From the IMG/VR virus record IMGVR_UViG_3300035216_000402, positions 1 to 36,822 of that record: a stretch of DNA of 36,822 nucleotides; one strand, given 5' to 3'. The position numbers and the translations under genes were made by a program. The DNA is from a virus. This document shows positions 6,452-32,423 of the stretch, one piece after another. Under the pieces are notes generated by a model, which saw only the letters and a program-made list of their open reading frames with translations, was not told the origin of the DNA and made no database searches. Each line of letters begins with the position of its first letter. The stretch's first letter is position 1.

Positions 6452-6602
6452 CTAGTATCTCGTTAATAATGTCCTTTAGTTCTTGTCTTTCTAGATTAGT
6501 AAAGACATTTCGTTTTGGTATAACCAATGGTGGATATATTCTCTTTGATTTTGGTTTACCATCACTAGGTAAACTCATTCCTTGTGTATCTATCTTATCC
6601 AT
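6423..6602 (-). CDS. Small hypothetical protein (59 aa) overlapping thyX
   Basis: A 59-residue frame starting MDKIDTQGMSLPSDGKPKSK, then a basic Pro-rich part (RIYPPLVIPKRNVF) and a charged helix (ERQELKDIINEILDEREQ) ending RKSN. Its ATG overlaps the stop of the gene at 6595-6777 (ATGGATAA), and its last 29 bases overlap the thyX start in another frame. This tight coupling is what supports it as real. It has no recognised family. It fills the gap between thyX and the upstream gene, which would otherwise be unexplained. Confidence 0.6.
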   Translation of the reverse strand: MDKIDTQGMSLPSDGKPKSKRIYPPLVIPKRNVFTNLERQELKDIINEILDEREQRKSN

Positions 6603-6777
6603 CTATTTCCTCATAAACTTCGTCGTAATCTGAAATGGGTAGGTAGTAAGATGCAGGGTCGTCAAAATTCTCTTGAGTTGTAGCATATGCATCTACATCT
6701 GAATATACTTCAGACTCTAGGTTTTCTAAAAGAGATTTTAGATTACTCACAATCAGTTTGAGTTTTTCTTTGTCCAT
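6595..6777 (-). CDS. Small acidic hypothetical protein
   Basis: 60 residues from ATG 6777: an amphipathic helix (KLKLIVSNLKSLLENLESEVY) then an acidic tail (NFDDPASYYLPISDYDEVYEE). I moved the start from 6810 because the promoter -10 box at 6799-6804 would place the transcript start near 6792, after that codon. No family recognised. It is the first gene of the thyX-phoH-gp33 transcript if the promoter inside the preceding terminator is used. Confidence 0.6.
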   Translation of the reverse strand: MDKEKLKLIVSNLKSLLENLESEVYSDVDAYATTQENFDDPASYYLPISDYDEVYEEIDG

Positions 6778-6798: not shown

Positions 6799-6827
6799 AT
6801 TATAGCACAAAAAAAGCGGGGTAGCAA
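6799..6827 (-). promoter_or_regulatory. Sigma70-type promoter nested in a terminator
   Basis: Reading leftward: -35 TTGCTA (6827-6822), 17-bp spacer, -10 TATAAT (6804-6799). The -35 box is the loop plus one base on each side of the terminator hairpin at 6816-6833; the spacer contains the right arm and T-run. It would drive the genes from 6777 leftward to thyX and beyond. Confidence 0.7.
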
Positions 6828-6833
6828 CCCCGC
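6809..6833 (-). terminator. Intrinsic terminator
   Basis: Hairpin arms gcggggt (6816-6822) and accccgc (6827-6833) around a 4-base loop. Read leftward the hairpin is followed by seven T. It lies just after the stop of the 61-aa gene (6841) and ends that transcript. Confidence 0.85.
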
Positions 6834-6840
6834 GAAACGT

Positions 6841-7026
6841 TTAATTTACTAAAATCCTCCTACAGATTCTTTTACATACCGATTGTTTATCATCACAGTC
6901 TATAAGACAACTATAATAATCATTTAAAAGATCGGATTCTTCTATCGAACGATTTAAAGTATGAGTTAGTCGTTCTACGCTTTGTTTCCAACCTGCTAAC
7001 TGATTATAGGAAATGAGATTGTGCAT
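6841..7026 (-). CDS. Small Cys-containing hypothetical protein
   Basis: 61 residues from the ATG at 7026, which has GAGG six bases upstream; an ATG at 7038 is in frame but has no such site. The protein is helical (QLAGWKQSVERLTHTLNRSIEE) and ends with a cysteine-rich part (YYSCLIDCDDKQSVCKRICRR) carrying four Cys (C-x3-C-x6-C-x3-C), which could bind metal or form disulfides. No family recognised. A TATAAT lies close upstream of the SD, too close to give a leader, so the promoter is unclear. The terminator at 6809-6833 follows directly. Confidence 0.55.
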   Translation of the reverse strand: MHNLISYNQLAGWKQSVERLTHTLNRSIEESDLLNDYYSCLIDCDDKQSVCKRICRRILVN

Positions 7027-7163
7027 AATATCCCTCATTATACGAATATTTACTTTTGAAAAAATGATATAGTAAATTTCATATCATAAGCACCTCTGTT
7101 CTATTATTATTTAGACTGCTTTGTGTTTATTCACTAACATTTGTTAATTTGATAAGTAAATAC

Positions 7164-11286: not shown

Positions 11287-11677
11287 TTGTGAGTCTCCGT
11301 TTTATGAGATGGTCTATTGAAAAATTACCAGCACCAGCAAGAACGATACATGCTGCCCCACCCCAGTAAAGAACTAAAAGTTCTAACAGGTAGATATTAA
11401 ATCCACCGGTAGATACAGCGTGATAGATTGCAAAGGACATAGTACCTAGGATTGCCAAGGCACCCAGTAGAGTGCCAAGTCCAAAGATAATCATCCAACT
11501 TCCTACAATCTCAGAAAATGCTGCGATGTAGGAGAAGAAGATTGGGAATGGAAGATGTAATGGTCTTACAAATGCATCCGCAAAGTTTTCAATGTTCTCT
11601 AGTTTCTCGTATCCATGATGGATAAGCATGATGCCTACCGATAAACGAAGTAATAAGAGTCCTAGAGATTTAATCAC
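11279..11677 (-). CDS. DoxX-family membrane protein
   Basis: 132 residues, four membrane helices. The N-terminus ([20 protein letters not shown]) and the pattern [31 protein letters not shown] are typical of DoxX/DoxD-like proteins. These are membrane proteins linked to redox and oxidative stress in bacteria, with no settled activity. The GTG start overlaps the psbD stop (GTGA), which couples it to D2 synthesis and suggests a role near photosystem II or thylakoid redox balance (inference). Confidence 0.8.
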
Positions 11678-22255: not shown

Positions 22256-22284
22256 ATATTAGCATAGAAAAAGGAGACCGTCAA
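22256..22284 (-). promoter_or_regulatory. Promoter nested in the terminator upstream of the lysozyme gene
   Basis: Leftward: -35 TTGACG (22284-22279), 17-bp spacer, -10 TAATAT (22261-22256). The six bases of the -35 are exactly the hairpin loop of the terminator at 22271-22292. The ATG of the lysozyme gene is 13 bases past the -10. Confidence 0.65.
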
Positions 22285-22292
22285 GTCTCCTT
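22268..22292 (-). terminator. Intrinsic terminator
   Basis: Arms aaggagac (22271-22278) and gtctcctt (22285-22292) with a six-base loop; T-run continues leftward (22272-22268). It ends the ferredoxin/hli transcript just after the 45-aa gene. Confidence 0.8.
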
Positions 22293-32362: not shown

Positions 32363-32391
32363 ATTATAGCAAAAAAGGGGCAGTTATACAA
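32363..32391 (-). promoter_or_regulatory. Glycan-cassette promoter nested in a terminator
   Basis: Leftward: -35 TTGTAT (32391-32386), 17-bp spacer, -10 TATAAT (32368-32363), with TAATAAATA, a late-like box, directly after it. The -35 covers the loop of the terminator hairpin at 32375-32400. It drives the epimerase gene starting at 32335. Confidence 0.68.
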
Positions 32392-32400
32392 CCACCCCTT
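32371..32400 (-). terminator. Intrinsic terminator
   Basis: Arms aagggg (32375-32380) and cccctt (32395-32400); with wobble pairs the stem extends inward to about 11 bp and a 4-base loop. T-run leftward 32376-32371. It ends the transcript carrying the 71-aa gene at 32511-32726. Confidence 0.8.
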
Positions 32401-32423
32401 CTGTAAAGGTCACTTCATGCACG

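Follow-up and report, generated by a model that had tools for sequence, protein, structure and literature searches.

The three intergenic elements described here are very probably compact composites, each combining an intrinsic terminator with a host sigma70-type promoter and acting as an insulator. Comparative sequence strongly supports the central feature of this arrangement: the -35 box lies at the apex of the terminator hairpin, exactly 17 bp from the -10 box, and tracks the presence of that -10, being absent when the -10 is absent. The window, meaning the whole 36,822-nt stretch of DNA that was analysed, is a 36.8-kb cyanomyovirus fragment. A 3-kb query around locus 1 matched 479 phage records, mainly Synechococcus and Prochlorococcus phages. 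Loci 1, 2 and 3 are all on the minus strand and share one plan, in which a GC hairpin is followed by a T-run, the apex reads TTGNNN, and a -10-like hexamer lies exactly 17 bp further on. Their features are:

6841..7038, minus strand: 65-aa gene (phrog_665, unknown function), stop codon 7 nt before the locus 1 hairpin
6816..6833, minus strand: locus 1 terminator hairpin GCGGGGT-TGCT-ACCCCGC, then T7 at 6815-6809; -14.4 kcal/mol including the T-run
6822..6827, minus strand: locus 1 -35 box TTGCTA, formed by the closing T, the tetraloop TGCT and the closing A
6799..6804, minus strand: locus 1 -10 box TATAAT, 17 bp from the -35; the ATG at 6777 is 22 nt on
6595..6777, minus strand: 60-aa gene downstream of the locus 1 promoter, a small ORF upstream of thyX, predicted to be started by that promoter
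22271..22292, minus strand: locus 2 terminator hairpin AAGGAGACT-TGAC-GGTCTCCTT; -12.9 kcal/mol
22256..22284, minus strand: locus 2 promoter TTGACG-N17-TAATAT, -35 at 22284-22279 and -10 at 22261-22256
32374..32401, minus strand: locus 3 terminator hairpin AAGGGGTGGTT-GTAT-AACTGCCCCTTT; -16.5 kcal/mol
32363..32391, minus strand: locus 3 promoter TTGTAT-N17-TATAAT, -35 at 32391-32386 and -10 at 32368-32363, upstream of a nucleotide-sugar epimerase gene

A sequence-only reading of the window had proposed that the terminator hairpin at 6799-6833 carries the -35 box of the next promoter, and that the same geometry recurs at 22256-22292 and 32363-32400 with 17 bp at each. The boxes and the spacer of 17 were confirmed at locus 1 on the minus strand, and the other two loci also stood, with the locus 3 hairpin running from 32401 to 32374. 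The phrase "in the loop" is slightly loose, since the first T of the locus 1 -35 closes the loop and the TT of the locus 3 -35 falls within the left arm. Each element has the GC stem-loop and direct T-run of an intrinsic terminator (-12.9 to -16.5 kcal/mol) and follows a stop codon, at 7, 6 and 109 nt for loci 1, 2 and 3. Each also has the TTGACA-like box 16–18 bp before a TATAAT-like box that marks a sigma70-type promoter, conserved among orthologs. The weakest of these boxes are the locus 2 -10, TAATAT, a weak hexamer though extended (TGC), and the locus 3 -35, TTGTAT, which has the consensus base at three of six positions and is a poor -35 in the source genome; both were counted against the composite reading. 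From the end of the -10 to the start codon there are 22, 13 and 28 nt, and the intergenic gaps that hold composites are ~50–80 bp.

The stems of the three window copies are unrelated to one another. By itself, the window has two loop-class promoters at 11 terminators, versus ~0.1 expected, which is suggestive only. These could be ordinary terminators followed by AT-rich DNA in which TTG and TATAAT occur by chance, as the imperfect boxes at loci 2 and 3 and a window promoter scan giving only slightly more sites than shuffles would allow. The counts from relatives come from 1.9 Mb of viral contigs, which were collected as carrying homologues of the neighbouring proteins, with the element itself playing no part in the choice. 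Among 316 unique strict terminators in this sample, 123 had a TATAAT-like box 7–14 nt after the stem. In 83 of the 123 a TTG starts at spacer 17, and no other single spacer was seen more than seven times. Swapping the downstream halves among the terminators with a -10 gave 23.4 expected (maximum 37 in 1000 trials) versus the 83 observed, while hairpins from terminators without a -10 gave 4.2 expected at spacer 17. The earlier suggestion that the coincidence is unlikely to be chance is thus borne out. Chance is a very improbable account given the sharp 17-bp peak, the -10 offset peak, the swap controls, and the ortholog and viral-versus-genome contrasts given below; for the class, chance and AT-richness were rejected on the spacing peak, the swap controls and the ortholog contrast.

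The loop TTGAC was found in 52 of the 123 terminators with a -10 versus 4 of the 193 without (p ~1e-20, nominal because the sequences are phylogenetically related), and the commonest loops of the latter were GAAA and TTCG. The 83 composites have 54 distinct stems and the same boxes. Across them the 17-bp spacing stays constant but the hairpin register floats: measured against the -35, the loop begins at anything between -1 and +3. Positions 4 and 5 of the -35 played no part in selection and are A in 66% and C in 69% of the 83. Stems flip between G-C and C-G in our pair tables, for which the hairpins had been selected for pairing, so that the sole independent pairing test is the left-arm swap of the hairpin-free scan.

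That scan looked in viral contigs for TTGAC followed by a T5-containing spacer and TATAAT, whether or not a hairpin was present. Among the 120 viral matches listed, 48 had the -35 as the loop of a GC hairpin, and left-arm exchange predicts ~5. The same pattern in prokaryote genomes gave a hairpin in 1 of the 120 matches listed, from a Clostridia-rich sample, and on this count a generic bacterial design derived from the host was rejected. At 41 of the 49 hairpin-carrying loci from the matches listed, the encoded proteins are closest to those of cyanomyoviruses. Separately, loop-class composites were observed at L216 and a few others (L273, L306, L310) on contigs without clear cyanophage proteins, and the design may extend to other phages.

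Orthologous loci were compared for the same boxes. Upstream of thyX, 47 locus 1 orthologs have a terminator with a -10, and the apex TTGNNN is present in 39 of the 47, nearly all at 17 bp and with many different stems; the start region of the 60-aa gene is the same in its relatives. A stem kept in relatives after loss of TTGNNN had been named as a finding that would count against the overlap. There were 21 such close relatives at locus 1, with a plain terminator and a GNNA loop that abuts the start codon (TTGNNN in 0 of 21); their -10 is lost too, and they are therefore plain terminators rather than counter-examples. At locus 2, 13 orthologs keep TTGAC and TANNAT at 17 bp while the stem bases differ. 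At locus 3 the orthologs read TTGACA, TTGCAT or TTTACA as the -35, with spacing unchanged. Of 72 unique upstream regions there, 36 combine the promoter with a hairpin on its -35 (spacer 17 in 35 of them); another 28 have the promoter but no hairpin, and 19 of these 28 still read TTG. The test took the best-scoring box, which favours TTG somewhat, but not the single spacing. The boxes outlast the hairpin and the hairpin register varies, so it is the promoter that stays in place and the hairpin that shifts about it. From these comparisons we conclude that the overlap is far beyond chance in relatives and is kept by selection, and the claim that one ~35-bp stretch serves as both terminator and -35/-10 promoter is strongly supported. 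A protein-binding or kissing TGAC loop is disfavoured, as the register floats ~4 nt with the spacing at 17 and the loop motif vanishes with the -10.

Two details of these loci concern translation. In the 21 plain-terminator relatives (L002-L042), GGGAGG(GNNA)CCTCCC-ATTTTTT, ~160–330 nt upstream of thyX, runs directly into the ATG and leaves no space for a promoter or the usual ribosome site; folding could bring the GGGAGG arm close enough to act as the ribosome site instead. The locus 2 -10 lies only 13 nt from the ATG, and the leader would therefore be ~6 nt, which counts against our best explanation. This short interval between predicted start site and ATG (22256-22243, minus strand) is kept in orthologs, and suggests leaderless or SD-free translation.

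The -10-like boxes might instead be phage late promoters of the TATAAATA type, which need no -35, leaving the loop TTG incidental. Locus 3 does read TATAATAAATA, and its orthologs run on into ATATA or ACATA. However, the loop TTGAC tracks the -10 at a fixed 17 bp, and the late motif is absent at locus 1 and its orthologs and at locus 2, and so we regard this reading as improbable. The locus 3 -10 (32368-32356, minus strand) continues, across the locus and its orthologs, as TATAATAAATA, TATAATATATA or TATAATACATA; it resembles a sigma70 -10 joined to a late-promoter-like ATANATA and is possibly a dual early/late promoter.

For the composite of terminator and sigma70-type promoter, the sequences show the geometry, that it is conserved and that it depends on the -10; we infer that termination and initiation occur at the elements, with insulation and compactness as the benefit. 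In the RNA, the hairpin and U-run would stop transcription of the upstream gene. In the DNA duplex, the hairpin apex would serve as the -35 and the right arm and T-run as the 17-bp spacer, with the -10 placed ~2–4 bp past the T-run. The new transcript would begin ~7 nt beyond the -10, downstream of the hairpin; it would therefore lack the hairpin and not itself be attenuated, and the RNA and DNA uses would not conflict. TTGACA is well suited to form a closing T-A pair and a TGAC tetraloop, and therefore one sequence can serve both signals. The predicted outcome is an insulated, self-starting transcription unit within a ~50–80 bp gap.

It is fairly probable that terminator and promoter merely share DNA for genome economy, with separate selection on each and no regulation beyond insulation. 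The floating register against a fixed 17-bp spacing, the persistence of the locus 3 promoter without a hairpin and the size of the gaps all agree with this; nothing strong speaks against it, and it is the minimal form of the composite explanation, with which it is compatible. Coupled regulation is an unlikely addition, in which polymerase terminating in the T-run covers the -10 and either blocks the promoter under heavy upstream transcription or is recycled after RNA release. It is possible because RNA release would occur ~2–4 bp short of the -10, and polymerase that has terminated stays on DNA and reinitiates nearby: in vitro, E. coli RNA polymerase remains on DNA after termination, diffuses and starts again from promoters close by (PMC6978380), and DNA retention with secondary, usually antisense, initiation has been described (PMC6978322). 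Such recycling offers a route for a promoter at a terminator to reuse the same polymerase (PMC6978380, PMC6978322), but it was shown in vitro for separated units. E. coli phages, moreover, use tandem, non-overlapping versions, and overlap is therefore not required. A relay is doubtful; here polymerase ending in the T-run would pass straight to the overlapping promoter, or would occlude it, and the output of each small operon would then depend on transcription of the preceding one. Insulation, and blocking of the promoter by read-through polymerase, had both been raised in the sequence-only reading, and we treat them as what the elements might do.

Promoter-early stem-loops (PeSLs) are a related design in which similar copies are repeated within one genome and are able to recombine. 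They are described in the T4-like phages RB49, phi1, PST and nt-1 (Arbiol 2010 and Comeau 2014, as cited in PMC4503421). A 2015 cyanophage paper searched S-PM2 for PeSLs; its authors gave a stem-loop at 11369-11391 and considered PeSL-mediated shuffling unlikely for the S-PM2 region studied (PMC4503421); in our analysis that stem-loop has TATAAT 8 nt after the stem. The cyanophage elements resemble PeSLs in placing a terminator stem-loop and a sigma70-like promoter, an early one in the PeSLs, in one intergenic cassette. They differ in that the RB49-type promoter is downstream of the terminator, whereas the cyanophage -35 is in the hairpin apex, and in that their stems differ from locus to locus (54 distinct among 83) rather than being repeated copies. 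Lacking the tandem order and the repeated copies, they are therefore not filed as PeSLs, although they work like the regulatory half of one.

Terminators in KVP40 and nt-1, GGGTTGAC(NNNN)GTCARCCC then TATNNT, are alike in having the -35 inside the hairpin and the -10 just past the T-run. They differ in that TTGAC is in the left arm, the spacer is mostly 18 bp, and a single, nearly identical stem recurs around each genome, in the form GGGTTGAC(NNNN)GTCAGCCC-T-run-TATNNT in KVP40 (L163-L169) and nt-1 (L598-L609). These stem-embedded -35 elements are probably what Comeau 2014 calls PeSLs. A phrase search of the open-licence literature for an overlapping terminator/promoter found no paper. We rate composite terminator/promoters as already known in T4-like phages, and the cyanophage placement of the -35 in the loop as new.

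Complete phage genomes were compared for the position of the -35 relative to terminators. Seven complete cyanophage genomes together have ~20 distinct loop-class composites versus ~2 expected; none were found in one of the seven, Syn9, which was counted against the composite reading. In RB49, T4 and Aeh1 the promoters come after the T-run (16, 12 and 20 found versus ~5, 3 and 5 expected), and the left-arm form of KVP40 and nt-1 is present in 5 and 7 copies. No loop-class composites were found in the complete genomes of T4, RB49 and T5, and Aeh1 and phiM12 have one each, not clearly over expectation; a feature generic to T4-like phages was ruled out on these counts.

Cyanophages are among the commonest ocean viruses, and scanning for the composite, a recognisable regulatory unit of theirs, can predict promoters and the borders of operons in the genomes of uncultured phages. 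One composite stands in front of high-light-inducible genes, directly before hli03 in S-SM2 and S-PM2, and in S-SKS1 a composite fills a 48-bp gap between genes. The many natural variants offer a test bed for termination/reinitiation coupling when the signals overlap.

Two other features of the window were observed. At 10842-10794, on the minus strand, 2 nt separate the end of a promoter, TTTACA-N17-TATAAT, from the terminator hairpin AGAGACC-TTAG-GGTCTCT-T7, and the transcript from this promoter would therefore start inside the left arm. The late-promoter-like TTTAAATA comes next, and the element could yield a very short RNA or else be a late promoter that is insulated. At 1593-1623, also minus, the 3' end of a convergent plus-strand gene (995-1657) contains a long terminator hairpin, and many relatives have hairpins like it downstream of thyX.
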